DNA from: an uncultured Coriobacteriaceae bacterium
GTDB taxonomy: Bacteria; Actinomycetota; Coriobacteriia; Coriobacteriales; Coriobacteriaceae
Direction of reading: 5' to 3'
Assembly (NCBI GenBank): GCA_944322305.1
Contig: CALUOP010000002.1
Location: forward strand, 248,001 to 312,000
Length of the DNA stretch: 64,000 bases
Of this stretch, positions 5,290 to 64,000 are shown one piece after another. Every line of letters begins with the position of its first letter. Positions within the stretch are counted from its first letter, which is position 1. The translations under genes and the position numbers were made by a program. Below the pieces are notes generated by a model that did not search any database, was not told the origin of the DNA, and saw only the letters and a list, made by a program, of their open reading frames with translations.

Positions 5290-5790
5290 TCTCACACAAG
5301 TTACGTTTACGCATTGCTTGTCGCGGCGGTGAAACGACGGTTACGCATATCTTTCGGTTACGCATCCCTTTGCGGCTGCGTTTTGCATAACGGGCTTTTC
5401 TCGCACGCCTTCTACCAGCGGAAATGCGAGAAGCGACGGTTATGCCGCATAAACCTGCGAGAAAAGCCATGCGTAACCGCAGCATTGCCCTGCCCCGCGG
5501 CGGCGAGCCATGCGTAACCGTCGTTTCTTTCGCCTCCGCAGGTAGAAGGCTCGCGAGAAAAGCCCGTTATGCAAAAAGCCGCCGCGGAGAGACGCGCAAC
5601 CGGAAGCTATGCGTAACCGGCGCCACGCAGCGGCAGGGAGGGATGCGTAACCGCCTTGTCCGCGCGGGAACAGCGCCCTGCTCCTGCGAGAACGGCTTCC
5701 TACCCATGCGAGAATGGCGTCCCTTCCGTGCGAGAACAGCGGAGAACGGCTTCCCGTCCGTGCAAGATAGGCGCCCCGCCCCTGCCCGTG
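5290..5790. repeat. Intergenic repeat island A (GGTTACGCAT / TGCGAGAA words)
   Basis: The 744-base gap between the divergent U32 and aminotransferase genes is full of short repeated words. GTTACGCAT or close variants occur near 5307, 5340 and 5358; the reverse complement ATGCGTAAC occurs near 5469, 5510, 5609 and 5643. TGCGAGAA-type words are interspersed (near 5425, 5456, 5552, 5686, 5707, 5730). Forward copies lie on the left and inverted copies on the right, around a large hairpin at 5381-5576. No convincing gene is present. The promoters of the two flanking genes must lie in or next to this DNA. Confidence 0.75.
5381..5576. repeat. Long inverted repeat at centre of island A
   Basis: The 41 bases at 5381-5421 and those at 5536-5576 are inverted repeats (38 of 41 matching). 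Inside, a second pair continues the symmetry: GAAGCGACGGTTATGC near 5429 against GCGTAACCGTCGTTTC near 5512. The whole can fold into a hairpin of about 195 bases. The GACGGTTACGCAT word also occurs as a direct copy at about 5336-5348. Confidence 0.8.
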
Positions 5791-36642: not shown

Positions 36643-36678
36643 GCGTTTATCGCCAGCGTCTGCGTTTATCGCCGGCGC

Positions 36679-37879: not shown

Positions 37880-37891
37880 ACAAGACGGTAA

Positions 37892-37911: not shown

Positions 37912-37970
37912 CGTTAGACACGCTACAGAACGGCGCAGTTTAAGACATCACGGCAAGAGAGGAACAGGCT

Positions 37971-38531
37971 ATGAAAAAGGATCTCGGTTCGATGCTGGCG
38001 CTGTACCCGCTGCCCGCCACGCTGGTGGGCGCCATGGTTGACGGCAAGCCTACCTGGCTCGAGGTGGCGCACGTGGGCATCATCGGACACGACCGCATCA
38101 TGGTGAGCAGCATGAAGAGCCACTTCACCAACCAAGGTATCCGCGAGACGGGCGCGCTCACGGTGAGCCTGGTGGACGAGGCGCTGCTGCCGCGCGCGGC
38201 CTACGTGGGCGCCAACTCCGGCAAGAAGGTTGACAAGTCCGGTGTGTTCGCGTGGGAGGCGGCCGCAAACGGTGCGCCGGTGCCGCAGGACGCCCCGCTC
38301 ACGCTTGTCTGCAACGTTGAGGATACGTACGAAACCGAAACGTTCGACAACTTCATCTGCTCGATCGCCTCGACGCTCGTGGACGAGGACAAACTCACCG
38401 AGGACGGCAAGCCCGATTACGAGAAGATTGCGCCCGTGCTCTTTGAGTTCCCCACGTACTCCTACCTCTCCACGGGCAAGGCGCTCGGCCCTTGCCTGAG
38501 CTTCGAGGACGCCTACCAGCCCGAGGCGTAA
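37971..38531 (+). CDS. Flavin reductase-like (FMN-binding split barrel) protein
   Basis: 186 residues from ATG 37971 after AGAGAGGAAC. It begins L-Y-P-L-P-A-T-L-V-G-A, then S-S-M-K-S-H-F-T-N-Q-G-I-R-E-T-G and S-L-V-D-E-A, the flavin-binding pattern of the flavin reductase-like domain family. These proteins reduce or carry FMN, or act with unknown redox partners. It has its own strong promoter with operator-like repeats and starts a redox-enzyme cluster. Confidence 0.85.
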   Translation: MKKDLGSMLALYPLPATLVGAMVDGKPTWLEVAHVGIIGHDRIMVSSMKSHFTNQGIRETGALTVSLVDEALLPRAAYVGANSGKKVDKSGVFAWEAAANGAPVPQDAPLTLVCNVEDTYETETFDNFICSIASTLVDEDKLTEDGKPDYEKIAPVLFEFPTYSYLSTGKALGPCLSFEDAYQPEA

Positions 38532-38626
38532 GGACGGGCGTGCGGCAGCCGCACATGCCGCTTCCACGATACAAGCGGGGCGGGGAGGTTGTTTCTCCGT
38601 CCATCCCGAATGGAGCGATGCTATGA

Positions 38627-39571: not shown

Positions 39572-39670
39572 CCAAAGGCGGTTTGCATGCGGCGCGGTGC
39601 CCGGGATATGGCGACGCGGGCGCCGCGCCGCGGTTGGTGAGCGGAGCAGCTGGGAACGAGGGGGGCGACC

Positions 39671-40723
39671 ATGTTGAGCAGGAGAACCTTTACCGGGCTT
39701 GCCGTCGGAGTGCTTGCGGCGGCTCTCACAGGGTGTGGCGCCGAGAACGGCGGGGATGCGGGGCAGGGCTCGCGCGAGCGTGCGCAGCAGGCGGGAAGCT
39801 CCGCAGCCCAGGGTAGCGCTGGGAAAAGCGATGCCCCGGTCGCGGCTGAGGGAGCGGCTAAACCTGCCCTGGTGTATTTCACGCGCGACATTTCGCCCGA
39901 GGGGCTTGGGCGCGCGTTCGACGCGCTGGGGGCTGTGCCGCAGGGTAACGTGGCGGTGAAGCTCTCAACCGGGGAGCCGGGCGGGCACAACTTCCTCTCG
40001 CCCGATCTTATCGCCGGCTTGGTCCAGCGTCTTAACGGCACCATCGTGGAGTGCAACACCGCCTACGGCGGAGCACGCTCCTCAACCGAGAGCCATCTGC
40101 GGGCGGCCGAGGACCACGGGTTCACGGCCATCGCGGACGTGGACATCATGGACGCCGACGGCTCGGTGAGCCTGCCGGTTGAAGGCGGCCGCCACCTCGC
40201 CGAGGACCTCGTGGGATCCCATTTCGAGAACTATGACTGGTGGCTCAGCCTGGCGCACTTCAAGGGGCATGCCATGGGTGGGTTCGGCGGCGCTGTTAAG
40301 AACTGCTCCATCGGCATCGCCTCGCGCGAGGGCAAGATGAACATCCACAGCGCTGGCACCTCCACAACGAGCTGGGGCAACCCTGCGCAGGACGACTTTT
40401 TGGAGTCGATGGCCGAGGCGACCAAGGCCGTGAGCAACCGGCTGGCGGGCAATATCTGCTACATCAACGTGATGAACAACCTCTCGGTTGACTGCGACTG
40501 CGACTTCCACCCGGCCGACCCCGAGATGGCCGACATCGGCATCTTGTCCTCGCTCGACCCGGTGGCGCTTGACCGCGCCTGCGTTGACCTGGTGTACGGC
40601 GCCCCGGACGGCGCGGCGCTTATCGAGCGCATGGAGAGCCGCAACGGCGCGCACACGCCGGACTACGGCGAGGCCATCGGCCTGGGCACGCAGACCTACG
40701 AGCTGGTTGACATGGACTCGTGA
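39671..40723 (+). CDS. DUF362 domain lipoprotein
   Basis: 350 residues. The signal peptide has twin arginines and a lipobox: L-S-R-R-T-F-T-G...A-A-L-T-G-C, so it is probably exported by Tat and lipid-anchored outside the membrane. After an Ala/Ser-rich linker comes DUF362: V-A-V-K-L-S-T-G-E-P-G-G-H-N-F-L, H-F-K-G-H-A-M-G-G-F-G-G-A-V-K-N-C-S-I-G, and V-D-C-D-C-D-F-H-P-A. DUF362 proteins often carry ferredoxin domains; this one does not. The role is unknown, probably extracytoplasmic redox or cofactor-related. Confidence 0.85.
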   Translation: MLSRRTFTGLAVGVLAAALTGCGAENGGDAGQGSRERAQQAGSSAAQGSAGKSDAPVAAEGAAKPALVYFTRDISPEGLGRAFDALGAVPQGNVAVKLSTGEPGGHNFLSPDLIAGLVQRLNGTIVECNTAYGGARSSTESHLRAAEDHGFTAIADVDIMDADGSVSLPVEGGRHLAEDLVGSHFENYDWWLSLAHFKGHAMGGFGGAVKNCSIGIASREGKMNIHSAGTSTTSWGNPAQDDFLESMAEATKAVSNRLAGNICYINVMNNLSVDCDCDFHPADPEMADIGILSSLDPVALDRACVDLVYGAPDGAALIERMESRNGAHTPDYGEAIGLGTQTYELVDMDS

Positions 40724-40862
40724 GCTGGGACGGCCTCGGCGCGGGTGCTCGGCGGATGCCGGGCATCGCGCTTGGGGCTGCGGCCCTTCAGGGGCGAGAA
40801 GGGCGTCCCGCTGGTTACGGAAGCACGTGCATCGTTGAAGCGACGACGGAAAGGAAGACGAC

Positions 40863-41555
40863 ATGTCCCGACTGAGCACCTTTGAGATCTCGCGCCGCAG
40901 CCTGCTGCGCGGCGCGGCGGCGCTTGCCGCGCTGGTTCCCGCGACCGCCTCGCTGGCGGCGTGCAGCAGCGAGGAGGCGCCCGCGCCTGCTGACGAGGGG
41001 GTTGCGGGCAGCGCGGCGGCCGGCTCCGCGCCGGCGGAGGATGTTGCGGCGCCCGAGCAGGACGCGGCGCAGCCTGCGGGCGGCAGCGTGCTCGTAACGT
41101 ACTTCTCGGCAACGGGGAACACTGAGGCGGCGGCGCAGGCTATCGCGGAGCATCTGGGGGCCGACGTGTTCGAGATCATTCCGGCTGAGCCCTACACCGA
41201 CGCCGACCTCGATTACAACGACAGCGCGAGCCGCACGAGCGTTGAGCGCGCAGAGGATGCGCGCCCGGAGCTTGCGCAGCTAACGCCCGACGGGTTCGAT
41301 GCCTGCGACACGGTGTTCGTGGGTTACCCCATCTGGTGGGGTGACGCGGCTTGGCCGGTCAAGACGTTTGCCGAGAACAACGACTTCACCGGCAAAACCG
41401 TGGTGCCGTTTTGCACCTCTGCCTCCTCGGGAGTCGGGGGCTCGGGCGACGAGCTCGCAGAGCTCGCTGGCACCGGCGATTGGCTTGAGGGTCGGCGCTT
41501 TGCGGCCGGCTCCGGCGATGACGCCGCCGCCTGGGCTGACAGCCTGGGGCTGTAG
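40863..41555 (+). CDS. Exported flavodoxin-like lipoprotein
   Basis: 230 residues. Tat plus lipobox signal: I-S-R-R-S-L-L-R-G...S-L-A-A-C-S, then an Ala/Pro-rich linker. The flavodoxin domain has the phosphate loop T-Y-F-S-A-T-G-N-T-E, Y-P-I-W-W-G-D-A-A-W-P and F-C-T-S-A-S-S-G-V-G. It binds FMN and probably shuttles electrons outside the membrane, like other Coriobacteriia Tat-flavodoxins. GGAAAGGAAG precedes the ATG. Confidence 0.9.
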   Translation: MSRLSTFEISRRSLLRGAAALAALVPATASLAACSSEEAPAPADEGVAGSAAAGSAPAEDVAAPEQDAAQPAGGSVLVTYFSATGNTEAAAQAIAEHLGADVFEIIPAEPYTDADLDYNDSASRTSVERAEDARPELAQLTPDGFDACDTVFVGYPIWWGDAAWPVKTFAENNDFTGKTVVPFCTSASSGVGGSGDELAELAGTGDWLEGRRFAAGSGDDAAAWADSLGL

Positions 41556-41557
41556 TC

Positions 41558-42017
41558 GTGGGCGGCCTTGACGCGCCCCTGAGCCGTCGCGCCATGCTGG
41601 GCGCTGCGGCGGCGGGGGCCCTTGCGCTCGGCGGCTGCGCGTGGACCCCGCGCGGTGCCGCATCCGACCAGGCTTCCGGCGCGTCGGGCGGATCGGCGGC
41701 CGCGCCGACCGCCTCCGACCCGTCCCGCCGCGTGGATGACGGGCTCGTTGCCATCGAGGGCGGCACGTTCAGCATGGGGAGTCCCGAGGATGAGCTGTGG
41801 CGCGGCTCGGACGAGACGTTGCACGAGGTCTCCGTTTCGAGCTTCTTCATGGATCCTTTTGAGGTGATGCAGGGGGGGGGATTATGCCCGCCTCATGGGC
41901 GAGAATCCCAGCGTTACCCAGGGAGACGCCCTTCCGGTGGAGAACGCGGAGCATCGCCCGCGCCGGGGACGCGCGGCGTGCAGGGCCGTTGACCTGGGCC
42001 TTGCCGCGGCGGGGTGA
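41558..42017 (+). pseudogene. Formylglycine-generating-enzyme-like lipoprotein, truncated, with G9 tract
   Basis: Starts at GTG 41558, two bases after the flavodoxin stop. Tat/lipobox leader (S-R-R-A-M-L-G...L-G-G-C), then the SUMF1/FGE start I-E-G-G-T-F-S-M-G-S and F-F-M-D-P-F-E-V-M-Q. At 41872-41880 a run of nine G shifts the frame. With eight G it would continue D-Y-A-R-L-M-G-E-N-P-S-V...L-P-V-E-N, as in the family. Even so, the sequence ends about 20 codons later at 42017, without the C-terminal two-thirds and its active-site Cys. Two lesions therefore exist: slippage at the tract and a deletion. Confidence 0.75.
41872..41880. repeat. Poly-G tract (G9) inside a coding region
   Basis: Nine consecutive G. 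Loss of one G restores the frame of the FGE-like sequence for about 45 codons. Such tracts are classical slippage sites for phase variation. Confidence 0.85.
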
Positions 42018-42268
42018 AACGCGTGGTGGCGGTTGCGGCCTGCGCGGCGGGGGCGCTCGCGGGAGCGTGGCCCTTCTCGACGCTCGACGTGGAGACCTAC
42101 CTCACGTACGCGTCCCCCTTCGTGTTCGTTGATTTCGAGGCGCCGCTTGCGCTGCGCTGGGCGCAGTGGCTTGCCGTGGGCGTGCTCTACGCGCTCGCGG
42201 GCGTGGGAATCTGGGCGCTGCTCGGCTGCCTGGAGCGGGGCGGGCGCGTCTCGGGAAACAGGAGATGA
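42014..42268 (+). CDS. Small two-helix membrane protein
   Basis: 84 residues from GTG 42014, overlapping the end of the FGE remnant. It has an N-terminal hydrophobic segment (V-A-A-C-A-A-G-A-L-A-G-A), a second one (W-L-A-V-G-V-L-Y-A-L-A-G-V-G-I-W) and an Arg-rich C-terminus. No family recognised. It might be a real small gene fused to the deletion scar or the end of a lost gene. The start is weakly supported. Confidence 0.45.
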   Translation: MKRVVAVAACAAGALAGAWPFSTLDVETYLTYASPFVFVDFEAPLALRWAQWLAVGVLYALAGVGIWALLGCLERGGRVSGNRR

Positions 42269-42274
42269 CACGGT

Positions 42275-42892
42275 ATGACGAATGAGGCTCAGAAGGCCAT
42301 GACGGAGCACGAGAAGCTTCTCGCGGGGCTCGAGTACGACTATACGGGCCCCGAGATCCAGGGGATGCTCGCCCGCACACGCGAGCTCATGACGGCGTAC
42401 AACGCCGAGGCGGCGCCCGCGCGCCGCGGGGAGATCCTGTGCGAGATGCTCGGGAGCTGCGGGGACAACGTGACGATCCAGTCGCCCGTGAGTGTGCTGT
42501 ACGGAGCGCATACGCGCGTCGGGCACGACGTCTTCATCAATGGCAACTGCACGATCCAGGACAGCGCGCTCGTCACCATCGGCGACCGGGTGGTGATCGC
42601 GCCCGACGTGAAGCTCTATTGCGGGCAGCATGCCATCGACGCCCGCGAACGCTGGACGCGCACGGCGGACGGCACGCTCAAGCTCGTGACCACAACCGCT
42701 CCCATCACCATAGGAAGCGATGTGTGGATCGGCGGCAACGTGACCGTGCTGCCGGGCGTGACCATCGGCAGCAACGTGGTGGTGGGCGCTGGCGCCGTGG
42801 TGGCGCGCGACCTGCCGGATAACTGCGTGGCGGTGGGCGTGCCGGCGCATGTGGTCCGCACCCTGCCGCCGCTTGATGACGGTGAGGGCTGA
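42275..42892 (+). CDS. Maltose/galactoside O-acetyltransferase-type sugar acetyltransferase
   Basis: 205 residues. N-terminal Mac domain (M-L-A-R-T-R-E-L-M-T-A-Y-N) followed by a left-handed beta-helix of hexapeptide repeats: I-N-G-N-C-T-I-Q-D, I-A-P-D-V-K-L-Y, W-I-G-G-N-V-T-V-L-P-G-V-T-I-G. The catalytic His is in C-G-Q-H-A-I-D-A-R-E-R. It transfers acetyl from acetyl-CoA to a sugar hydroxyl. Confidence 0.93.
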   Translation: MTNEAQKAMTEHEKLLAGLEYDYTGPEIQGMLARTRELMTAYNAEAAPARRGEILCEMLGSCGDNVTIQSPVSVLYGAHTRVGHDVFINGNCTIQDSALVTIGDRVVIAPDVKLYCGQHAIDARERWTRTADGTLKLVTTTAPITIGSDVWIGGNVTVLPGVTIGSNVVVGAGAVVARDLPDNCVAVGVPAHVVRTLPPLDDGEG

Positions 42893-42998
42893 GGGCCTGG
42901 CGGCAGGGCTCGCCATCTAAACGTCAGGGGCGGGCGCCGAGGCAGCATGGGACCTCGGCGCCCACATGGGCAAGGTGCTGCGCGAGGGGGAATGCAAG

Positions 42999-43670
42999 AT
43001 GAGGAAGGTGCTGATCATCAGCTCGAGCCCGCGCAAGGACGGCAACTCGGACATGCTCTGCCATGAGTTCGCCGCTGCGGCGCGGGAGGCGGGCGCGGCC
43101 GTTGAGGAGGTGGCGCTGCGCGACCTCGCGATCAGCCCGTGCCGGGCGTGCTACGACTGCTGGAGTACGCAGCGATGCGTGCTGCGCGACGACATGGCGC
43201 CGCTGCTCGAGAAGATCACCGCGGCGGACGTGCTGTGCGTGGCGACGCCCGTGTACTTCGGCCTTCCGTGCGGGCAGCTCAAGGTCATGGTCGACCGGCT
43301 GCTGCCGCGGTGGCAGGGCCTTGGCGGCAAGGACGTCTACCTCATCGTGACCGGCCACGACGGCCGCGCCGGCTTGGCGCACGCGGCGGACGACCTGCGC
43401 CTGGTGTTCGAGAACCTCGGCGACACCGTGTGCGGTGTGGTGTGGGGTGAGCATGTGTGGCAGAAAGGCGAGGTTGCGGGCACGGCGGCCGTGGCGCTGG
43501 CCTGGCTCATGGCCAAGGGCGCCGTACCGGTGGTGGGCATGACCAAGCCGCACCACGTGGACGGCGCCGTCGAGGCCTGCGGGTTCGCGCTCACCGATGA
43601 GGAGTGCGCCTACCTGGAGGAGCCTTACGTGCCGCACGCGCTGGTGGGCGTGATGGCCGAGAACCGCTAA
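42999..43670 (+). CDS. Chimera: NADPH-dependent FMN reductase joined to an aldo/keto reductase C-terminus
   Basis: 223 residues from ATG 42999. Residues 1-165 are a flavodoxin-fold iron-sulfur-type FMN reductase: L-I-I-S-S-S-P-R-K-D-G-N-S-D, S-P-C-R-A-C-Y-D-C, A-T-P-V-Y-F-G. The last 55 are clearly the end of a different enzyme class: A-L-A-W-L-M-A-K-G-A-V-P-V-V-G-M-T-K, L-T-D-E-E-C-A-Y-L-E-E-P-Y-V-P-H, as in aldo/keto reductases. The join near A-G-T-A-A is in frame. A deletion fusing two neighbouring genes is the simplest origin. An upstream in-frame ATG at 42966 is less likely. Confidence 0.85.
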   Translation: MRKVLIISSSPRKDGNSDMLCHEFAAAAREAGAAVEEVALRDLAISPCRACYDCWSTQRCVLRDDMAPLLEKITAADVLCVATPVYFGLPCGQLKVMVDRLLPRWQGLGGKDVYLIVTGHDGRAGLAHAADDLRLVFENLGDTVCGVVWGEHVWQKGEVAGTAAVALAWLMAKGAVPVVGMTKPHHVDGAVEACGFALTDEECAYLEEPYVPHALVGVMAENR

Positions 43671-43761
43671 CGACGGCCGCGCGGTATGCTGGCGGTGCGT
43701 GATTTCGGGAATAAGAGCGGCGTCTAGGCATCTGCCCGCGCATCCGAGCAAAGGAGCAACT

Positions 43762-44094
43762 ATGGCGTTCACCATGAACCTGTACTACACCGGCACTGAC
43801 GGCGCGGCGCGCAAGTTCGCTGAGGAAATGGAGTCCTCAGGTACGGCGGGGGCCATCCGCCAGCGCCCGGGCAACTTGGCCTACCGGTACTTCCAGCCGC
43901 TCGACGACCCCGAGACCGTGCTGCTCATAGACTCCTGGGCCGACCAGGAGGCGCTCGACGCGCACCACGCCTCGCCGGCTATGGACACCATTGCCCAGCT
44001 GCGCGACAAGTACAACCTGCACATGCGCGCCGAGCGCTACGTTACCGACGACGCCGGCATGCCCGACCGCGACGCCGCCTTCATCCGCTCGTAA
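43762..44094 (+). CDS. Antibiotic biosynthesis monooxygenase (ABM)-domain protein
   Basis: 110 residues from ATG 43762 with AAAGGAG upstream. Single ferredoxin-like ABM domain: P-G-N-L-A-Y-R-Y-F-Q-P-L-D-D-P-E-T-V-L-L-I-D-S-W-A, then A-L-D-A-H-H-A-S-P, the usual signature of putative quinol monooxygenases. Substrate unknown; fits the redox theme of the preceding genes. Confidence 0.85.
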   Translation: MAFTMNLYYTGTDGAARKFAEEMESSGTAGAIRQRPGNLAYRYFQPLDDPETVLLIDSWADQEALDAHHASPAMDTIAQLRDKYNLHMRAERYVTDDAGMPDRDAAFIRS

Positions 44095-44319
44095 GCGCCT
44101 CACTTCGGGCCGCCATAGGCAGGCCGCAAGGCCAAATCCTGCCCCCGTCCAGCCTTGCGCTTGCATGCTCTTCCCCCGCCACCCCCCCTGCTTGCTACTA
44201 TTTGCTCTAACAAGCCAAAAACGCGCAGGTAGCGGAGCAAAACGCAAACAGGGCGCTGTGGCAAAGGGGAACGTGCAAGCGGAACGGCTGGGCGCGGCAA
44301 GGTATGAGGGAGGCCCCGC

Positions 44320-45198
44320 GTGTTTCTCACCCACCGCATAGAGGAAATGGTGGCGCAGGCCACGGACACGCGTCGCGCCATCGGCGCGTTTGTGCTGCGC
44401 GAGCGGGCGCACCTCTCTGACTACACCATCGCCGACATTGCGCGGGAGACCTACGCCTCAAAGGCCTCGGTCACGCGCTTTGCCAAGACGCTGGGCTTTG
44501 ACGGCTGGCGCGACTTCATTCACGACTTCATGGCCGAAGTTCACTTTGAGCAGGCGCACAGCGCCGCGGTGGACCCCAACTACCCCTTTGCCGAGGGCGA
44601 CCGCGACGAGCAGGTGGTCACGGCCATAGCCGACGCGCAGTACGACGCCGTGTCGGACACGCTGCGCACGCTCAACCGCGGCGCGCTGGCGCTGGCCGTG
44701 CGCTACCTGACGCATGCCCGCAGCGTGCATGTGTTCGGCGTGAGCCCCAACACCTATCTGGGCGAGCTGTTCTGCCGAAAGATGCTGTCCATTGGCAAGA
44801 CCGCGTGCGTGGTCCATCCGGACGAGAACGGCGTGACGGCACGCTCGCTTACGCCAGACGACTGCGCGCTCATCATCTCCTACTCGGGCAACAACGCCAG
44901 CGAGAACCCCATGCAGGTGGTGCCGGCGCTTACTGCCGGCAAGGTTCCCACCATAGCCATCACCGGCGAGGGGCAGAACTACCTACGCCGCAACGTGCGC
45001 TGCACGCTCACCATCTCATCGCGCGAGGCGCTGTACGACAAGATCGCCACCTTTGAGACCGAGGCGTCCATCTTGTTTCTGTTGAACGCGCTGTTCAGCT
45101 GCTGCTTTGCGCGGTCATACGAGAAGAACCTGGCCTACAAGCGCCATACCGCCCGCACGCTCGAGCAGAGCCGCGAGGCTGCCGGCCTGGAGCGGTAG
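44320..45198 (+). CDS. MurR/RpiR family transcriptional regulator
   Basis: 292 residues from GTG 44320 with GGGAGG upstream. N-terminal HTH_6 domain (Y-T-I-A-D-I-A-R-E-T-Y-A-S-K-A-S-V-T-R-F-A-K-T-L-G-F) and C-terminal SIS sugar-phosphate domain (V-H-V-F-G-V-S, I-S-Y-S-G-N-N-A-S-E-N). Directly upstream of a beta-glucoside PTS and GH1 gene, so it probably senses a phosphorylated glucoside and controls that operon. Confidence 0.93.
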   Translation: MFLTHRIEEMVAQATDTRRAIGAFVLRERAHLSDYTIADIARETYASKASVTRFAKTLGFDGWRDFIHDFMAEVHFEQAHSAAVDPNYPFAEGDRDEQVVTAIADAQYDAVSDTLRTLNRGALALAVRYLTHARSVHVFGVSPNTYLGELFCRKMLSIGKTACVVHPDENGVTARSLTPDDCALIISYSGNNASENPMQVVPALTAGKVPTIAITGEGQNYLRRNVRCTLTISSREALYDKIATFETEASILFLLNALFSCCFARSYEKNLAYKRHTARTLEQSREAAGLER

Positions 45199-45290
45199 GG
45201 GCGGGTGCGGCGCGGCCGCGGCTTGCCTTCGGCGTGACGGCGGCGCGGTGGCTGCCTGCGGCGCCGGCCGATTTGCCGTTCACGGGCGAA

Positions 45291-45349
45291 TTTCACCAAG
45301 TTTCACAATGCGCCCGCGCGAGCGCGCCCTGAGCTGAAACCTTGTTTCA
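45291..45349 (+). promoter_or_regulatory. TTTCAC / TGAAAC operator-like sites before the PTS gene
   Basis: TTTCAC occurs twice, 10 bases apart (45291-45296, 45301-45306). A perfect dyad TGAAAC-CTT-GTTTCA lies at 45335-45349. Dyads of the GAAA...TTTC kind fit RpiR-type regulators, and the RpiR gene ends 92 bases upstream. The rest of the 323-base gap up to 45521 shows TACTAT near 45390, a possible -10, but no clear -35. Confidence 0.6.
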
Positions 45350-45521
45350 TGCTTTCCTCTCAGCATATCCGCAGGTAGACATCCTTCCTACTATCAGTGG
45401 TGCAACGCGGCGCGGGCCAGGCCCGCCTAGACCCCGTCCGCCAAGGGCCCGCCGGCCGGGACCCAGGCGCCTTGACCGCACTCCGCACGCGCTTATGGCC
45501 CAACATCTGAGAGGAGAAAGC

Positions 45522-49071
<3,550 letters not shown>

Positions 49072-49177
49072 GGTCTGGGCCGGGCCTGGTTCGGCCCGGG
49101 TCTACGATGGGTGATGAGAACGGCCGGGTTCGCCGCGGGGCGCGCCCGGCCGCTGGTCTACGGAGGTTGTGCGACCT

Positions 49178-50152
49178 ATGGGAGAGATGGACGTTGCTGC
49201 GACGCTGGGCAGCATGCTTTCGCTTGTCATCGTCACCGCGCTGGGCTATGTTGCCGCGCGGCTCGGTTATTTGAACGACGAAGTGCGCCCGCGCCTCTCG
49301 GGGCTTATCTTCAACGTGACGCTGCCGTGCACGGTCTTGGCGTCGGTGGGGGAGGCGGACGCCTCCATGGGCGGCGACGATGTCGCCTGGTCGCTGATCC
49401 TCGGGTTCGCGCTGTTCTTCGTCATGCTCGCCGCCGCAGCGCTTGCCAGCGTCGTGGTTCGCGCGCGGAGCGAAGAGCGCGGCCTGTACCTGTTCATGGG
49501 CGTGCTCACCAACACGGGCTTCATCGGGTTCGCCGTGCTCGAGTCGATCTTCGGCGGGCCGTCGGTCTTTCTCGGCAGCATCTTCATCGCGGTGTCGAAC
49601 GTGTTTCTCTACAGCATCGGCATCGGGGTGCTGACGTCGGGCGGCCCGCGCGACGCTGCGGGCGAGGGTGGCCGCGGCGCAGGTGGGCGCGTGCGCGCCG
49701 TGCTGCGCAACATGCTGAACGCGCCGCTGGTGGCGAGCGCCGTTGCGATGGTGGTGTTCTTCGCGGGCGTAGGCCTGCCCGCGCCGGTGATGCAGGCGGC
49801 TGACATGGTGGGAGGCGCCACCTCGCCGCTTGCCATGATGCTGGTGGGCCTTTCGCTTGCAGCCGCCGACCTGCGCTCCGTCCTCGCGCAGGGCCGCCTG
49901 TGGGTCTACGCGCTTGTCCGCTTCCTGGTGGCGCCGCTTGCAGCCTACGCGTTGCTTGCGCCGGTGGTGCCGAGCCGCCTCGCGCTCGGGGTCTTCGTGG
50001 TGATGCTCGCCATGCCCACCGGCTCCATGGCCGGCCCCATTGCGGCCACCTACGGCAGGGACGCCGAGCTTCCGGCACGCGGGACCATCGTGTCCACGCT
50101 CGCCTCGTTTGCGATCGTGCCGGTGCTCATGGCGGTGATGAGCGCAGCGTAG
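49178..50152 (+). CDS. AEC (auxin efflux carrier) family transporter
   Basis: 324 residues from ATG 49178; GGAGG lies 11 bases upstream, and an in-frame GTG at 49169 is an alternative. About ten helices; typical start L-G-Y-V-A-A-R-L-G-Y-L-N, then F-N-V-T-L-P-C, T-N-T-G-F-I-G-F and the C-terminal M-P-T-G-S-M-A-G-P. AEC members export or import malate, organic acids or amino acids; the substrate is unclear. A charged Gly/Arg-rich loop lies mid-protein. Confidence 0.88.
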   Translation: MGEMDVAATLGSMLSLVIVTALGYVAARLGYLNDEVRPRLSGLIFNVTLPCTVLASVGEADASMGGDDVAWSLILGFALFFVMLAAAALASVVVRARSEERGLYLFMGVLTNTGFIGFAVLESIFGGPSVFLGSIFIAVSNVFLYSIGIGVLTSGGPRDAAGEGGRGAGGRVRAVLRNMLNAPLVASAVAMVVFFAGVGLPAPVMQAADMVGGATSPLAMMLVGLSLAAADLRSVLAQGRLWVYALVRFLVAPLAAYALLAPVVPSRLALGVFVVMLAMPTGSMAGPIAATYGRDAELPARGTIVSTLASFAIVPVLMAVMSAA

Positions 50153-50365
50153 GGCGCCGAGGCGGGCGGTGACGGACGCGGGGGCGGGCGTGCCCGACAC
50201 CTGCCACGATCAGGTGACGCTTGGCGCGGTGACGGACGCGGGGGCGGGCGGCTTGGCGCTGGCGCCCCTTCCCTTGGCAGAAGTCGGGCGTGCCCGTCGG
50301 CCGGCATGCGGGCGCGGCGGGTGCGAGAACGGCGGCTAAGCCGCCCTGCGGCACCTGCGGCGTCC

Positions 50366-50985
50366 CGGTTGGTCGCGGGGTCGACCTGTAGGGCGGGGCG
50401 CGGCCTCGGTTGGTCGCGGATATGTCAGACAAGTTGGTTCGCGGCGTGCGCGGCGCCCCGGTTAGTCGCGGGGTCGACCTGCAAGGCGGAGCGCGGCCTC
50501 GGTTGGTCGCGGATATGTCAGACAAGTTGGTTCGCGGCGTGCGCGGCGCCCCGGTTAGTCGCGAAGTTGTTCTCCAGGCTCTTGGTTGGTCGCGGGTTCG
50601 ACCTGTAAGGCGGAGCGTGCTTCCGGTTAGTCGCGGAAATGTCACGGGGCGAGTGGTTGGTCGCACAGACAGCGCGTAACTCCCGGCATTTCGGGAGTTA
50701 CGCGCACTTTCAGCGACCAAACGGAAATTACATGCGACAACCGCGTTCAACCGAAGGCTTGCCTGCGATGAATGCGACCAACTGGAAATTGCGTGCGGCA
50801 ATCGCGTCCAACCGGGAGCTCCGCTCGTCGCAATCGCGTCCAACCGGGGGCCCGCTCGTTGCAGCTGCGTTCGGCTGGAGGCTTACGTGCTGCAACCGCG
50901 TCCAACCGGGAGCTCCTCTCGTCGCAACCGCGTCCAACCGGGAGCTCCTCTCGTCGCAACCACGTCCAGCCGGGATCGTGCTCGC
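50366..50985. repeat. Intergenic repeat island C (GGTTGGTCGCGG array with inverted half)
   Basis: Most of the 1-kb gap between the AEC and TetM-like genes. Left part: GGTTGGTCGCGG-type units near 50367, 50408, 50433, 50460, 50501, 50526, 50553, 50584, 50625 and 50655, including a 93-base tandem duplication (50366-50458 and 50459-50551) that is almost identical. A hairpin is at 50672-50705. Right part: inverted units (GCGACCAA, later GTCGCAAnCGCGTCCAACCGG) at about 31-32-base spacing up to about 50980. The remaining 50153-50365 and 50986-51160 show no gene; the first has two copies of CGGTGACGGACGCGGGGGCGGGCG. Confidence 0.8.
50672..50705. repeat. Central hairpin of island C
   Basis: GCGCGTAACTCCCG and CGGGAGTTACGCGC form a perfect 14-bp stem with a GCATTT loop, exactly between the forward and inverted halves of the array. 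Confidence 0.85.
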
Positions 50986-51176
50986 GATACGTACCCTCAA
51001 CGGTAAACTTGGCAGCCGCGATCGCGGGTAACCGGAGACGCGCCTGCGCCAATCGGCTACCCTAGACAGTGCTTCGATCGGCGCTTCCCCTAGGCGCGAG
51101 ATGGGCCGGCGCGAGATGAGCCGGGGCGAGAAGCGGGCTGGGAGCGGAAAACGGGCTGGGATTTTTGGGAGGCCGT

Positions 51177-53300
51177 GTGGGTACGCAGGCGGTTGTGGGG
51201 CTGTTGGCACATGTTGACGCGGGGAAGACGACCCTTGCGGAGGCGCTGCTCTTTTGCGCGGGCGCCTTGCGCGCGCAGGGGCGCGTGGACAAGGGCAGCG
51301 CTCACATGGACACCGACCCCATGGAGCGCGAGCGCGGCATCACGATCTTCTCGCAGCAGGCGGCCTTTGACTACGCCGGCACCCACGTGATGCTGCTGGA
51401 CGCGCCGGGCCACGTGGACTTCTCGGCCGAGGCCGAGCGCACGCTCGGGGCGCTGGATTACGGGCTGGTGGTAGTGGGCGCCAACGACGGCGTGCAGGGC
51501 CACACCGAGACCATGTGGGCGCTGCTTAGGCGCTACGGCATTCCGGCCTTCGTGTTCGTGAACAAGCTGGATCTGGAGAACCCCGGCGCGCCGGCGCTCA
51601 TGGCCGAGCTGCGGCACCGCTTGAGCTCCTCGTGCGTGGACGGCGCTGCGCTGGCGGCTGCCCTGGCGGGCGAGAAGCACCCGGGCGAGAAACGCTTGGG
51701 CGAGAAGCACCCGGCCGGCGCGGACGGTGCGGCTGCGGCGGGCACCGAGGGCCTGCCCCGTCCGGACGCAGCGGCCGTCGCGCAGGCCCTCGAGGACGCG
51801 GCCGCCACCGACGAGGACGCGCTCGACGAGTACCTGGAGACGGGCGCGCTTGAGGCCCGGATCGTGCGGCGCCTGGTGGCCGAGCGCAAGGTGTTCCCGG
51901 TGTTTTCCGGCTCCGCGCTCAAGGGCGTCGGCGTGCGCGAGCTGCTCGACGGGCTCTGCGCGCTTGTCGCCCCCAAAACGTGGCCGGACGCCTTCGCCGC
52001 GCGCGTGTACAAGGTAAGCCGCTCTGCGCGCGGCGATCGGCTGGCGCACCTCAAGGTCACCGGCGGGGTGCTGCGCGCCAAGATGGTGCTTGAGGGCGTG
52101 GAGGACGGCGAGCCCTGGGCAGAGAAGGTCGACCAGGTGCGCGTCTACGACGCCGAGAGCTTTGCCACCGTGGCCGAGGTGCCGGCCGGGCGGCTGTGCA
52201 CGGTGACGGGCCTTTCGCACGTGCGACCGGGAAGCGCGCTGGGCGCCGAGCCGGCCGGCGCGCATCCGGCCTTGGCGCCGGTGCTCTCCTACCAGGTGCT
52301 CCCCGGCGAGGCCGACGTCCACGCGCTGGTGCGGGCGCTGCGCGAGCTGGCCGACGAGGACCCGCTTCTGGGCGTGACGTGGCACGAGCGGCTGCAGGAG
52401 GTGCACGTGCAGCTCATGGGCGCGGTGCAGCGCGAGGTGGTGCAGGAGCTTCTGCGCACGCGCTACGGCATGGAGGTTGGGTTCGGGCCGGGCGGCATCC
52501 TGTACCGCGAGACCGTCACAGCGCCGGTGGAGGGCGTGGGGCACTTCGAGCCGCTGCGCCACTACGCCGAGGCGCGCCTATTGCTGGAGCCGCTGCCGCG
52601 CGGCGCCGGCGTGAGGGTGGGGACGCGCTGTGCGGAGGACGACCTTGCGCGCAACTGGCAGCGGCTCATCCTCACGCACGTACTGGAGCGCGAGCACGCG
52701 GGCGTGCTCACAGGCGCGCCGCTTGCCGACGTGCGCATCACGCTGGTGGCGGGCCGCGCGCACGCCAAGCACACCGAGGGCGGCGACTTCAGGCAGGCAA
52801 CGTACCGCGCCATCCGCCAGGGGCTCATGCGCGCCCGGGCCGCGGGCGCCTGCGAGCTGCTCGAGCCGTGGTACCGCTTCAGGCTGGTGGTGCCGGCCGA
52901 CAAGGTGGGGCGCGCGCTCGCGGACCTCACACGCATGGCGGCCGAGTTCGCCGCGCCCGAGACGACAGGCGACCTCGCTGAGATAGCCGGCGCGCTGCCG
53001 GCTTCCGAGGTGGGGGAGTACGCGCTCGAGGTGAGCGGCTACACCGGCGGCCGCGGGCGGCTTTCGCTCGAGTACGAGGGCTACCGGCCGTGCCACAACG
53101 CCGAGGCGGTGATCGAGGCCGCGGCGTACGACCCGGAGGCCGACCTGCCCAACACGCCCGACTCGGTGTTCTGCAGCCACGGCGCCGGCTACACGGTGAA
53201 GTGGGACGAGGTGCCCGCGCACGCGCACACGGCGGTTGACGAGGCGCGGCTGCGCCCGTGGCGCGAGGCCGACGCCGCGTTTTTCTCGTCCGCGCGATAA
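51177..53300 (+). CDS. TetM/TetW-like translational GTPase (ribosomal protection protein family)
   Basis: 707 residues if started at GTG 51177; GGGAGG lies 4 bases upstream. A TTG at 51165 would overlap that site. EF-G-like domains: G1 A-H-V-D-A-G-K-T-T, switch I R-G-I-T-I-F, G3 D-A-P-G-H-V-D-F, G4 N-K-L-D; C-terminal domain IV with G-G-R-G-R-L-S-L. The family removes tetracycline from the ribosome, but many chromosomal Gram-positive members are of unproven function. A three-fold G-E-K-H-P-like pentapeptide repeat (51668-51712) interrupts the G domain region. Confidence 0.85.
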   Translation: MGTQAVVGLLAHVDAGKTTLAEALLFCAGALRAQGRVDKGSAHMDTDPMERERGITIFSQQAAFDYAGTHVMLLDAPGHVDFSAEAERTLGALDYGLVVVGANDGVQGHTETMWALLRRYGIPAFVFVNKLDLENPGAPALMAELRHRLSSSCVDGAALAAALAGEKHPGEKRLGEKHPAGADGAAAAGTEGLPRPDAAAVAQALEDAAATDEDALDEYLETGALEARIVRRLVAERKVFPVFSGSALKGVGVRELLDGLCALVAPKTWPDAFAARVYKVSRSARGDRLAHLKVTGGVLRAKMVLEGVEDGEPWAEKVDQVRVYDAESFATVAEVPAGRLCTVTGLSHVRPGSALGAEPAGAHPALAPVLSYQVLPGEADVHALVRALRELADEDPLLGVTWHERLQEVHVQLMGAVQREVVQELLRTRYGMEVGFGPGGILYRETVTAPVEGVGHFEPLRHYAEARLLLEPLPRGAGVRVGTRCAEDDLARNWQRLILTHVLEREHAGVLTGAPLADVRITLVAGRAHAKHTEGGDFRQATYRAIRQGLMRARAAGACELLEPWYRFRLVVPADKVGRALADLTRMAAEFAAPETTGDLAEIAGALPASEVGEYALEVSGYTGGRGRLSLEYEGYRPCHNAEAVIEAAAYDPEADLPNTPDSVFCSHGAGYTVKWDEVPAHAHTAVDEARLRPWREADAAFFSSAR

Positions 53301-58812: not shown

Positions 58813-59796
58813 TTACCGCACCTCGTAAGGCGAGTTCTCGCCGCGGCTGAAGGCCAAAAGCGCCTCAACGTTGCTGCGCACCATGTGCTCTACGTCCTCG
58901 GCGGTGTAGAAGGCCATGTGCGGCGAGACGATCACGTTGGGCAGCGCCATCAGCACGGCGCGGTCGCGGTTGGGCAGCGGCTCGCCCGTGCGGTCGAGGT
59001 AGTACAGGCCCGCCTCGTTCTCGATGGTGTCAAGCGCCGCGCCGCCCAAATGCCCCGATTCCAGCGCCTCAACCATCGCAGACGTGTCCACCAGCATGCC
59101 GCGCGCGGCGTTTACCAAGATGGTGCCCGGGCGCATGCGCGCAAGCTCGGCGGCGCCGATCATGTGGTGGTTCTCGGGCAGGCCGGGCGCGTGCAGGGTC
59201 ACCACGTCGGCTTGGGCGAGCAGCTCCTCCAGGCTCACGTAGCGGGCGAGCCTTTGCACCTCGGCGCGCGGATAGGGGTCGCAGGCCAGGATCTGGCAGC
59301 CGAAGCCGGCAAGCTCCTGGATCACGCGCGAGCCGATGGCGCCCGTGCCCACCACGCCCACGGTGCACGAGGAAAGCGAGCGCCCCAGCTTGCCGGCCAG
59401 CCCGAAGTTCTGCCCGGCGGCCTGCTGGAACACCAGCTTGGCCCGGCGCAGCGCCATGAGCATGAGCATCACGGTGTAGTCGGCCACGCCGTCGGGCGGG
59501 TAGGCGGCGTGGGCCAGGCGCATGCCCAGCGCGCGGGCGTGGGCCACGTCAATGTGGTCGTAGCCGATGGAACGCGTGGCGATGGCGCGGATCCCCAGCG
59601 CGTGGTAGCGGTCGAGGAGCTCCGGCGTCATGGGGTTGGTGATGATGCAGAGCGCGTCGGCGCCAGCGGCAAGCTCGACGTTTTCCAGGGTGGGGTAGTC
59701 GGCGGTCCAGCCGTAGGTGAAGCCGAGCCGGCGGCTTAGGCTGTCCAGGTAGCCGAGCTCGTCAAAGGGGCGCAGGGCGTAGGCAAACAGGTGCAT
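58813..59796 (-). CDS. D-lactate dehydrogenase-like D-2-hydroxyacid dehydrogenase
   Basis: 327 residues from ATG 59796 with GGAGA upstream. NAD-binding V-G-V-V-G-T-G-A-I-G-S-R, catalytic Arg in N-A-A-R-G-M-L-V-D, Glu in I-E-N-E-A-G and His in S-P-H-M-A-F-Y-T. The arrangement, with A-T-R-S-I-G-Y-D-H-I-D-V, matches D-LDH/VanH-type enzymes reducing pyruvate to D-lactate. No VanA-like ligase is near, so a fermentative role is more likely. Confidence 0.9.
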   Translation of the reverse strand: MHLFAYALRPFDELGYLDSLSRRLGFTYGWTADYPTLENVELAAGADALCIITNPMTPELLDRYHALGIRAIATRSIGYDHIDVAHARALGMRLAHAAYPPDGVADYTVMLMLMALRRAKLVFQQAAGQNFGLAGKLGRSLSSCTVGVVGTGAIGSRVIQELAGFGCQILACDPYPRAEVQRLARYVSLEELLAQADVVTLHAPGLPENHHMIGAAELARMRPGTILVNAARGMLVDTSAMVEALESGHLGGAALDTIENEAGLYYLDRTGEPLPNRDRAVLMALPNVIVSPHMAFYTAEDVEHMVRSNVEALLAFSRGENSPYEVR

Positions 59797-59861
59797 GGGT
59801 ATCTCCTCTCGGCCGGATGCGGAGGCGTCGTGCGTCTTGGGCGGCCCCATGATACCGCGGC

Positions 59862-59889
59862 TTGCCACGCGCTGCGCGTTTGCTATGAT
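59862..59889 (+). promoter_or_regulatory. Promoter of the frameshifted MFS gene
   Basis: TTGCCA (59862-59867), 16-base spacer, TATGAT (59884-59889), in the gap between the divergent dehydrogenase and MFS genes. Good match, so the MFS gene may still be transcribed. Confidence 0.65.
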
Positions 59890-59998
59890 AGGCGCGCCGG
59901 TTGCGCAGGGTGTTTCCGCGCAAAAGCGCCCGGTTCGCCCGGGGAGGCGCGCTCTCAGGCGCGTGGAGGTTTCCGCGAGATCTGCCTGGGAGGTTACT

Positions 59999-61425
59999 AT
60001 GCGCAACGCGCTTTCTCGCTCCGCCGCGGCATCCGCCCCCAACAAGTGGGTGGTGCTTCTCACCGTGGTGCTCATGACCTTTATGTGACAGCAGCATCGT
60101 CAACGTGGCGCTGCCCGCCATGCAGCGCGAGCTCGCCGTGGGCGCTTCCGACATCCAGTGGGTGTCGAGCGTGTACTTGCTCGTGTGCTGTGCGGCGGTG
60201 CTCGTGTTCGGCCGGCTGGGCGACCTGTTCGGCAAGGTGCGGCTCTTCCAGCTGGGCGTGGCGCTTTTCACGCTCGGCTCGCTTTTGTGCGGGCTTTCCA
60301 CCACGCTGCCGGCGCTTATCGGCGCGCGCGTGGTGCAGGGGATCGGCGCGGCCAGCGCCACGGCCACCAACATGGGCATCGTCACCGAGGCGTTCCCGGT
60401 CACGCAGCGCGGCCGGGCGCTGGGGGATCGTGTCCACGTTCGTCTCGCTCGGCATGATGTGCGGCCCCACCATCGGCGGGGTGCTGGTGGCGGCCTACCC
60501 GTGGGAGTCGATCTTCCTCATCAACGTGCCGGTGGGCGTGGTGGCCTTCGTGGTCGGCCTCAAGACGCTGCCGCGCGACGTTGCCCCCGCCGAGCGCCAG
60601 CGCCTCGACATCGCAGGTGCCCTGCTCATTGCGCCGGCCCTTTTTGCGGCGTTCTACGCTCTCACCAACCTGGCCAACGGGGCGGATCCGGCCATGATCG
60701 CCCTGCTGGCGCTGGGCGTTGCGCTCTTCGCTGTGTTTGTGGCGGTGGAGAAGCGCGCCGCCTCGCCGCTCGTGCGGCTCGACGTGTTCCGCAACGGGTT
60801 GTTCTCGCTCAACCTCATCACCATGTTCCTGTGCTTCGCGGTGGTGGGCGGCACCGAGCTTTTGCTGCCGTTCTACCTGCAGGACGCCTGCGGGATGCCC
60901 TCCAACGTGGCGGGCCTTGCGCTTACGGCCATCCCGCTTGCCATGGCGGTGGCGGGACCGGTGGCCGGCGCGCTTTCCGACCGCATCGGCTGCGCGTTGC
61001 CGTGCCTGGTGGGCCTGGCGGTGTACGCGGCGGGTATCGCGCTGGTGGGCGGACTCACCCAGACGGCGTCGCTTGCGCTGGTGGTGGGGCTCATGGCGTT
61101 CATGGCGGCGGGTACGGGGCTTTTCCAGTCGCCCAACAACTCGCTGGTCATGGGCTCGGTTGACCGCGAGCACCTGGGGTTTGCCGGCAGCTTGGTGTCG
61201 CTGGTGCGCTACATGGGCATGTCGGCCGGCGTCACCGGCGGCACCACGCTTCTGTACGGGCGCATGAGCGCGCTGGCCGGCTACGAGGTGAGCGCGTACG
61301 TGCCCGGTCAGCCGGAGCTCTTCTTGGCGGGCTTCAGCTTTGCGTTTTACGTCTTTGCGGCGTTGGTGCTTGCCGGCGCGGTGTTCACGGTGGCAGGCAT
61401 GGTGCTCAAACGCCGCCGGAGGTAG
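59999..61425 (+). pseudogene. MFS efflux transporter (DHA2 type) with two frameshifts
   Basis: Starts at ATG 59999 (GGGAGG upstream) and reads to M-T-F-M, then hits TGA because of one extra T at about 60086. The next segment (S-S-I-V-N-V-A-L-P-A-M-Q-R-E-L to A-L-G) is in the +1 frame. A second extra base in the GGGGG at 60422-60426 shifts to the third frame, which stays intact (I-V-S-T-F-V-S-L-G-M-M-C-G-P-T-I-G-G to K-R-R-R-R). Joined, it is a full transporter resembling that at 30835. Both changes are single-base insertions, so sequencing error cannot be excluded. Confidence 0.85.
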
Positions 61426-61434
61426 GCGCGCGGC

Positions 61435-62290
61435 GGGCGAACGCGGCGTTCGTACGAGTTTCCTGGGCGGGAATGCTGCCCGTATGAGCATCGCGCGCAA
61501 AACCCGGGTTCGTACGACCGCTGCGGGCGAGCACTGCGCTTATACGGCAACTGTGGGCGAAAGCTGTGTTCATACGACTGCTGCGGGCAAAAGGTCCACT
61601 CATACGAGCGCGCTGGGCGAGAATTGCGATCATACGGCCGCTGTGGGCGAAAAGCGGACTCGTACGATCCCGTTGGGCGAAAACATCACTCATACGAATG
61701 CTGTGGGCGAAAACTGCACTCATACGAGCACGTTGGGCGAAAGAATCACTCATACGAGCGCGCTGGGCGAAAATGGCGTTGATACGAGCCGAGGTGGGCG
61801 AAAACCGTGTTCATACGAAGTTTTTGCCTCGGAAAACGACTCTGCGGCAGGCGGATAGGGCCATGTGCGACCGGTTTGCCCTTACATGACGAAAGGGCGG
61901 TTAGGGCGAGTTGCATTTTCGCGCAAAGCTTTCGTATGAGTGAGCTTTTCGCCCGTTGCGCTCGTATCGATGTAATTCTCGCCCGTTGCGCTCGTATCGA
62001 TTCAATTCTCGCCCAGACGTACTCGTACCAGCTTGGTTTTCGCCCGGCCAAGTTGTTTCGGCCTTCCTTTTCAGTTTGCGGCGACCGCATCGGCTCGGTT
62101 CACCGCCCGGCCAAATTGCATTGGCTTCTCTTTTTTCGCTCGCGGCGCTCGTGCCAGCCCGGTTTTCTGCCCGACCGACGTTGTTGCGCATCCGGAATCA
62201 CCGCTCGGGGCTGGCGTCTGATCCTGCTGCTTGGCAGCAATGGCCAGATCCGCTCATCCCCGTGGGCGAGAACAACATCCATATGAGAGC
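61435..62290. repeat. Intergenic repeat island D: 30-bp-phased GGGCGAAAA...CATACGA array, two-armed
   Basis: Thirteen forward units start at 61435 (about), 61465, 61495, 61525, 61555, 61585, 61615, 61645, 61675, 61705, 61735, 61765 and 61796. Each is GGGCGA, 10 variable bases, CATACGA, 7 variable bases. After a centre (61830-61915) the same unit runs inverted, with GCCC/GCGC cores at 61921, 61951, 61981, 62011 and 62042 and more decayed copies beyond. One forward unit (GGGCGAGAACAACATCCATATGA) recurs at 62263. The 30-base period keeps several frames open as decapeptide repeats, but no start signal supports a gene. Confidence 0.88.
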
Positions 62291-62362: not shown

Positions 62363-63541
62363 TTACAGCTTTACGCCGGCTTTTTGCGCTTGCGTACGCC
62401 ATTGCCGTTCGGCTGCGAGCTTGTACGCAAAGCGGGGGAGGGGCGGCTTGGACAGTACGGTTCCCAGCTCGCCGCCGGTAAGCAGCGCGCCAACAAGCTC
62501 GTCAACAGCTTCCGAGACGCGGCGGCGCATCATGCCCATGCGCGGCATATGGGCGCAAGGCAGGATCATGCCTCCTCCGCCCAGGGCAACGCCGCCCATC
62601 CAGCAGACGCCCGCCGCGCGGCAGAAGCTCTCAACCACCGCAAACGAGGGTAGGATCTGCTCCGGCTCGTAAAATCCCAGGTTGGCAAGGGTGTACACGC
62701 GCGTTCCGGGCGCCAGCTCGCCTTGCGCGCGCTCGAGCAGCTCAACCAGGCCGGCCGGCAGCGCGTCCACGTACAGCGGGTAGCCCAGCACCGCGGCGTC
62801 GCAGCCGGCAAGCGCTTGCACGGCCTTCTCGGACACGCTCGGCGCGGCGGAGGGGCATCCCACAGAAACAAGCTCGGGGGCGGTGACGCCGGCCAGCTGC
62901 GCGTAGGCGCCAAACGCCTCGGCAAGGTCGGCCAGCAGGTGCGCGGTGGCGGAGCGCGGTCCCTTGGGGCTGGCGTTCACCAGGGCAATGCGCTTCGGTG
63001 CCGTGCGGGGCGCCAGCGCAACCGACCGCGCCGGAACAGCCGCGGCGCTTTCCTCCCGCCCCACGCCCGCCGCGGTTTCCGGGAACCAGGTGCCAACAAA
63101 ATCCTGACCCATGTTGAGGGCGTTTGCCCGCGCGATGCGCTCGAAGCTCTCGCGCTCGGACTCGGTCGAGGGGCCGTAGAGCCAAGCGCGCAGCGCAACC
63201 CGGTTGCCGTAGCGCAGCCGATGGTGCATCTCGTTGTTCACGATGCGGAAGTTGGGGTGCAGGTAGCCGATTGCGCGGTCGAGGGCGCGCTTGACCAGCG
63301 GACTGTATCCGCCAAAGGCGTTGCGCGCAACAACCCAGAGCTCGTCGGTGCGGGCGAGAACCTCGGGCAGCCTTTGCAGCTCGTCGCGAAACACGCAGGT
63401 GCCGGGCGTGCGCACCCAGCAGGCAAAGCAGCCGCAGCAGTCGCGTGCGGCGAGCAGGTCCTCGCGCGCAAACAGCGCGTCGCTCTCGATGCCGAGCCCT
63501 TCAAACTCGCGGCGCGGCAGGTCGCAGATGATCGTACGCAT
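62363..63541 (-). CDS. Tandem two-domain flavodoxin-fold / NADPH-FMN-reductase-like protein
   Basis: 392 residues from ATG 63541 (AAAGGA upstream); codons further upstream lie outside the gene. First half: D-C-C-G-C-F-A-C-W-x-R-T-P-G-T-C-V-F-R-D-E and L-W-V-V-A-R-N-A-F-G-G-Y-S-P-L-V-K-R-A-L-D-R. Second half: R-I-A-L-V-N-A-S-P-K-G-P-R-S-A-T and L-G-Y-P-L-Y-V-D-A-L-P. Both resemble the iron-sulfur flavoprotein/FMN reductase fold, so it looks like a fused pair, possibly a two-flavin enzyme. Exact function unknown. Confidence 0.75.
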   Translation of the reverse strand: MRTIICDLPRREFEGLGIESDALFAREDLLAARDCCGCFACWVRTPGTCVFRDELQRLPEVLARTDELWVVARNAFGGYSPLVKRALDRAIGYLHPNFRIVNNEMHHRLRYGNRVALRAWLYGPSTESERESFERIARANALNMGQDFVGTWFPETAAGVGREESAAAVPARSVALAPRTAPKRIALVNASPKGPRSATAHLLADLAEAFGAYAQLAGVTAPELVSVGCPSAAPSVSEKAVQALAGCDAAVLGYPLYVDALPAGLVELLERAQGELAPGTRVYTLANLGFYEPEQILPSFAVVESFCRAAGVCWMGGVALGGGGMILPCAHMPRMGMMRRRVSEAVDELVGALLTGGELGTVLSKPPLPRFAYKLAAERQWRTQAQKAGVKL

Positions 63542-63676
63542 GGCGTATCCTTTCGGCGCCGGCGCCTCAGGGCGGGGCGCGAGACCGGCTTGGCCCAGCT
63601 CGGCGAGAAGGTCGGCGATAACGGCTGCCGTGGAGCGGGACGACGCGTAGGGGGGCTTTCCAGTGAGCGGGGTGAT

Positions 63677-63775
63677 ATGGATGATACCCAAACCACACGC
63701 GAGTTTCTCGGCGATGCACTTGCGGGGCCGGCGTTGCGGGCGGCGTGGGCGAGCTCGCCCCTTTACCGCCTCTGA
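63677..63775 (+). CDS. Possible 32-residue ORF or gene fragment
   Basis: ATG 63677 to TGA 63775; product begins M-D-D-T-Q-T-T-R-E-F-L and ends S-S-P-L-Y-R-L. The sequence looks like the N-terminus of a larger protein, but no family was recognised. GGGGTG upstream is a weak ribosome-binding site. It could be a remnant. Confidence 0.25.
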   Translation: MDDTQTTREFLGDALAGPALRAAWASSPLYRL

Positions 63776-63903
63776 GCGCGGGCGGCTCCCCGGCGCTCGG
63801 GCCGATCGCCAGCCACCGCAGGTGCTTGTCCGCGCGATGTGCGACAATGAGCCCAACCGCCGCCGCGCGGCAGGCGCGACGGCCCGTAAAGAGGGGAGCC
63901 GCC

Positions 63904-64000
63904 ATGGCAAGACATGAGCGAGAGGTCATCGGTGTTGACGACCGGGTTTCGGTTGGACGCGCCATCCCGCTGGGGATCCAGCACATGATGAGCATGTTCG
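63904..64000 (+). CDS. NCS2 family nucleobase:cation symporter, N-terminal fragment
   Basis: The first 32 codons, cut by the window end. The start (GAGGGGAG upstream of ATG 63904) and V-D-D-R-x-x-x-G-R-A-I-P-L-G-I-Q-H-M-M-S-M-F are typical of uracil/xanthine permeases. A dyad TTGTC-N13-GACAA lies about 55 bases before the start; no purine-riboswitch-like structure was seen. Confidence 0.8.
   Translation, partial: MARHEREVIGVDDRVSVGRAIPLGIQHMMSMF

Follow-up and report, generated by a model that had tools for sequence, protein, structure and literature searches.

Dispersed two-armed arrays of a 30-bp unit in a Coriobacteriaceae genome, candidate docking arrays for a DNA-binding protein

Three published accounts (PMC3116915, PMC3733652, PMC2817692) describe REP, BIME and REPIN elements, together with the RAYT transposases, as high-copy, intergenic, species-specific palindromic composites that bind protein; the REPs are 20-40 bp palindromes with a GTAG or CGTC tag, alternate in orientation within BIMEs and are thought to spread inside genomes. 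The arrays described here are likewise dispersed, intergenic and species-specific, however their unit is a non-palindromic bipartite 30-mer with no GTAG or CGTC tag, and instead of alternating as in a BIME the units are lined up head to tail in two long arms, which oppose each other a single time. They also differ from MITEs in having no sharp terminal inverted repeats, their arms decaying outward to background. A literature search found no description of such arrays.

The window is a 64,000-nucleotide stretch from an uncultured Coriobacteriaceae bacterium, whose genome of 2.35 Mb (G000) is a draft, as are genomes it was compared with. An earlier note, made from the letters of the window alone, had reported an array with 13 forward units at a 30-bp period near the right end; this array is real and all 13 units were located, starting at 61435, 61465, 61495, 61525, 61555, 61585, 61615, 61645, 61675, 61705, 61735, 61765 and 61796, with eleven steps of 30 bp and one of 31 bp. 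At least five inverted units had also been claimed, of which four are clear (starts 61932, 61962, 61992 and 62023; steps 30, 30 and 31), a fifth being reached only if a degenerate unit is counted; the unit at 61902, like the distal one, keeps 11/16 box positions. TRF detects the array and reports periods of 30 and 60. The parts of the array, its flanking genes and two further arrays in the window are collected in Table 1.

Table 1. Positions of the arrays, their parts and the flanking genes, counted from the first letter of the window
Feature	Position	Strand	Remarks
Family III two-armed array	5304..5660 (wider extent 5304-5790)		arms CGGTTACGCAT / ATGCGTAACCG, sub-motif TGCGAGAA
Family II two-armed array	50348..50990		arms around hairpin 50657-50720 (29-bp arms)
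Flanking gene, MFS transporter (PF07690)	59791..61425	+	stop codon 10 bp ahead of first unit
Family I forward arm	61435..61818	+	13 units GGGCGARAA-N7-CATACGA-N7, period 30 bp, one 31-bp step
Family I centre separating arms	61819..61931		holds degenerate inverted unit 61902-61924
Family I reverse arm	61932..62045	-	four clear inverted units
Degenerate distal inverted unit	62149..62171	-	11/16 box positions
Lone forward unit GGGCGAGAACAACATCCATATGA	62264..62286	+	
Flanking gene, flavodoxin/FMN reductase-like (PF03358, weak)	62363..63910	-	convergent with MFS gene

The unit of this array defines family I and carries 30-32 bits, with both boxes strongly conserved, the gap between them partly so (NNGCRCT) and the linker hardly at all. 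Across the 2.35 Mb a relaxed pattern, GGGCGARAN-N5-9-CATACGA, is matched exactly 63 times and its backwards control never, the strict pattern 28 times, and the count is far above what chance would give. The matches group into 19 elements across the genome, and a further 16 elements with the family I unit were found in a sister species (G003), so the array is not unique to this assembly, uniqueness being an outcome that the earlier note had named as counting against its reading. In every family I element the forward units lie to the left and the inverted units to the right, and of the 257 same-strand steps no longer than 62 bp, 231 measure exactly 30 bp.

The 19 family I copies adjoin diverse housekeeping genes, and the genes on either side of them are in tandem at 11, divergent at 4 and convergent at 4, which makes it unlikely that the elements act as terminators or promoters of particular genes; such a role was rejected on the orientations of the neighbours. 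No common gene and no adjacent DNA-binding regulator was found among the neighbours examined. Three other candidates were set aside: an origin or terminus macrodomain, as the flanking genes are spread over the whole of complete relatives, any excess toward the origin being mild at most; targeting of tRNA genes, which only a minority of copies adjoin; and a plasmid or phage origin, as the phage, plasmid and viral collections searched contained no match to the arrays.

Most family I elements have a dyad, the palindrome TCGTACGA, by way of which the last forward unit and an inverted one share 15 bp; the window element lacks it. The centre that comes next is constrained in length, the far arm lying 113-114, 122-125 or 143-144 bp away. 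These centres fall into classes. Ten copies have a core CATAYCCCTATGCG at a distance of 18 bp from the dyad, with a motif log-likelihood of 153 against 64-70 in shuffles; another class carries a TACC(T/A)GCG-like core that is partly common to family III.

Two sibling families of two-armed arrays were found in the window in addition to family I. The box of family II is CGGTTGGTCGC (CGGTTRGTCGC), with a weaker second box near CATCTAAG, and CGGTTRGTCGCG has 47 exact matches in the source genome and no more than one in any of five relatives. For family III the corresponding figures with CGGTTACGCAT are 30 matches and none, and neither family was found in the three congeners. Ten family III elements have exactly 114 bp separating their facing boxes, and the boxes of the window copy, at 5355 and 5469, are this distance apart. 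That families I, II and III are of one kind is weakly suggested by the layout they share and by a weak shared core, TACCTGCG-AAAC, in some of the centres. Two observations were made in passing at these loci. About 14.7 kb of the window (about 36490-51186), with genes for a PTS, a GH1 glycosidase, an aldo-keto reductase and a flavin reductase and with the family II array at its right end, has mostly no equivalent in the corresponding region of the sister species, and the gap that holds a family III element in the source genome contains in the sister species a perfect hairpin pair, CGTCGAAACTCTG..CAGAGTTTCGACG (L209, 19503-19697, contig C11 of G003).

The spacing of family II sites (30/31, 41-43, 52, 61-62, 73, 83 and 104 bp) has a best period of 10.30-10.45 bp (R 0.83-0.86, P<2e-4), and at three held-out loci the phasing reaches R 0.88, against 0.07 in background. 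Sites confined to one face of B-DNA would be spaced in just this way, and no other observation speaks as strongly for the arrays being read by a protein as this helical comb does. The family I pitch does not divide exactly into helical repeats; it had been suggested that 30 bp come close to three turns and set all cores on the same side, which holds approximately, however 30 bp are 2.87 turns at 10.45 bp/turn, the cores drift by about 47 degrees per unit, and a strict one-face arrangement does not stand.

Within an arm, adjacent units are alike at 6.6/14 positions and non-adjacent ones at 5.9, and at one locus (L010) three near-identical units lie in tandem, which argues that the arms grow by tandem duplication; the suggestion that the array is the footprint of a process duplicating 30-bp units is thereby supported as the mode of arm growth. 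The quality of the boxes drops outward in both arms, from 15.5/16 to a background of 6.8 by about the ninth unit, and this decay might also mean that selection acts on the inner units only. Several elements of the sister species are orthologous to those of the source genome (L010/L052, L018/L051, L024/L053 and both elements of L026/L042). At these orthologous loci the variable bases of the units are no more alike than random, despite third codon positions of the neighbouring genes that are 70-79% identical between the two species, and units must therefore be replaced faster than they mutate. Such rapid turnover, with boxes and pitch kept, argues for selection on the boxes.

Elements have also been inserted into an operon gap. 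The gap between ftsY and ffh is 3 bp and 10 bp in two other genera (G006 and G061), whereas in the source genome it is ~0.76 kb and holds a family I and a family II element side by side; the elements are thus gained and not ancestral, the length of the gap being the sign of insertion where element boundaries are blurred. In the sister species the same gap (L211) is ~0.28 kb long and holds a different inverted repeat, GGGCGAGGCCGGCGCGAGG..CCTCGCGCCGGCCTCGCCC, and it would thus appear to be a hot gap for palindromic elements.

The exact family I unit is absent from two further congeners, G001 and G002, each of which has, at several loci, two-armed arrays with the 30-bp pitch and with boxes that have drifted (TGGCGAGAA-N6-YGATCCTA in the former and TGCGCAAAA..CGATACGG in the latter). 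Downstream of tRNA-Gln a two-armed array is found in all four species (4/4), written in a version of the unit, or password, that is particular to the species, and this password differs genome-wide between the species of one genus. A 53-position profile, built from the arrays of all four congeners, matches at many places in every one of the four species sampled from the genus. The 245 other Coriobacteriales genomes gave no array and at most one weak match each, five such single weak matches being found outside the genus, and ~400 kb from four further genera held no array, a sample expected to hold only ~3 at the local density.

In one species of genus g3 (G005), 31-bp two-armed arrays of TTGCCGGTGCACTTTCGGCC occur at three places (L096, L125 and L126), where they surround a GTACAT hairpin and decay outward; these are treated as analogous only, because their GGCCGAAA box points the opposite way to family I. 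Beside one of them, on the reverse strand of L125 at about 1525-1595, there is a long near-perfect hairpin on CATGACAGTTAGGACGGGGCCCAGTGTCATGC.

The reading that we prefer, with a probability of roughly 0.6, is that the elements are dispersed, inserted and turning-over docking arrays for a putative sequence-specific, probably cooperative DNA-binding protein. The protein would read the GGGCGARAA and TACGA boxes, would nucleate at the central dyad, which is TCGTACGA in most copies, and would then load cooperatively along both arms, these lengthening through tandem duplication and decaying at the outer end, and protein and password would co-evolve. It might be by way of the protein that the elements are spread or kept, whether they are selfish repeats of a REP-like kind or are of use as bound clusters that organise the chromosome or insulate it. 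Of the three options that had been offered for the window array, a phased protein-binding platform is the one best supported, with boxes kept, gaps that drift, inverted partners free of any pairing constraint and a phased family II, although the word phased applies exactly to the sibling family II and approximately to family I itself. It may tentatively be proposed, and we regard this as somewhat doubtful, that two-armed docking arrays of this kind, inserted and with several families per genome, form a new class of chromosomal element, each family with its own co-evolving putative protein assembling outward from the dyad, and with a password that is rewritten genome-wide between sister species.

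The arrays could also be purely selfish, REP- or MITE-like repeats whose arms and centre are recognised by a transposase or recombinase that copies them into gaps, with no other role. The insertion into the tight ftsY-ffh gap would fit this, as would the copies in all gene orientations, the conserved geometry of the centres (114 bp in family III and the three length ranges of family I) and the presence of families II and III in the source species and not in three congeners, a lineage restriction that agrees with a purely selfish reading too. However such repeats would be expected to have conserved outer ends, and here the arms fade into background; furthermore the boxes are sharp at orthologous loci where the intervening bases have turned over, which decaying copies should not show, the unit is without a GTAG- or CGTC-tagged palindrome, transposition has no need of long tandem phased arms, and the phage, plasmid and viral collections are without a match. 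A purely selfish origin is considered rather unlikely. A separate possibility, that a recombinase uses the centre as its core and the arms as arm-type sites, each element serving for integration or inversion in the manner of attP or of dif with inward-pointing guide sequences, draws on the resemblance of the layout, a core with inward-pointing arm sites, to attP or dif and on the conserved CATAYCCCTATGCG at its fixed distance from the dyad in ten copies, yet there are several unrelated classes of core and no cargo or inversion was seen between the arms, and it seems improbable.

A structural RNA or a long RNA hairpin, transcribed through both arms, was another of the options offered for the locus, and inverted arms would indeed let a transcript fold. 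Its variable positions should then covary between inverted partners, and in neither family I nor family III do they: the complementarity of the variable bases in 27 dyad units is 3.89/7, against 3.82 when they are shuffled between copies (P 0.38), and in family III the arms of one element are alike at 11.5/34 positions against 12.2 between different elements, so that the partners are under no visible pairing constraint. An Rfam search gave no match above chance and the elements are not set at any constant distance from where genes start or end, and an RNA function of this kind is thus thought quite unlikely. A period of 30 leaves reading frames open, as a coding tandem repeat of 10-residue units would require, however both strands are open simultaneously, steps of 31 and 32 bp inside the arms break the frame and the element recurs in many unrelated intergenic gaps in all orientations; the locus is accordingly not a translated gene, translation in relatives being the other outcome that the earlier note had named as counting against its reading, and we consider the coding reading very improbable. 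Local tandem duplication with neither function nor mobility would account for adjacent units being somewhat more alike than distant ones, and is hardly credible when the boxes recur at numerous unlinked places and also in a sister species, and the reversed pattern nowhere.

If the preferred reading is true, this would be a bacterial case of dozens of regularly spaced, dispersed binding arrays that are inserted, grow in tandem and change sequence in concert between sister species. Two matters would then become directly testable: how a protein and the binding code that it reads across the chromosome co-evolve, and whether the role of such repeats is selfish or nucleoid-organising. The three families in one genome make an internal comparison possible.

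Other described systems share single features with the arrays. A regular alternation of conserved and variable stretches is reminiscent of CRISPR, however the conserved part is split 9+7, the variable stretches are of 7 bp, two arms oppose each other and there are ~20 places, so the view that the array is not a CRISPR is upheld. Plasmid centromeres and iterons (parC/parS) are direct-repeat arrays, sometimes two sets around a core, and are read cooperatively; family I with its 30-bp pitch and family II with its 10.3-10.45 bp have the regular spacing of such cooperative binding arrays, whilst the arrays here differ in having opposed arms and ~20 chromosomal copies per family, and the neighbours examined include neither a par nor a rep gene, and the plasmid collection gave no match. 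The stoperators of mycobacteriophage L5 are many directional, asymmetric binding sites in intergenic gaps, and are single sites in a phage as against tandem arms in a chromosome. The neisserial NIME and streptococcal BOX elements are modular intergenic repeats in which the number of sub-units varies; their units are unrelated to those found here, and they are not known to have a fixed 30-bp pitch or comparable helical phasing. In kind the arrays belong with the dispersed intergenic repeats, and they fail the features of REP, BIME, MITE, CRISPR and structured RNA that were tested. Finally, in having a password that is proposed to be rewritten genome-wide, they would resemble the satellite centromeres and recombination-hotspot motifs of eukaryotes, which are likewise rewritten.
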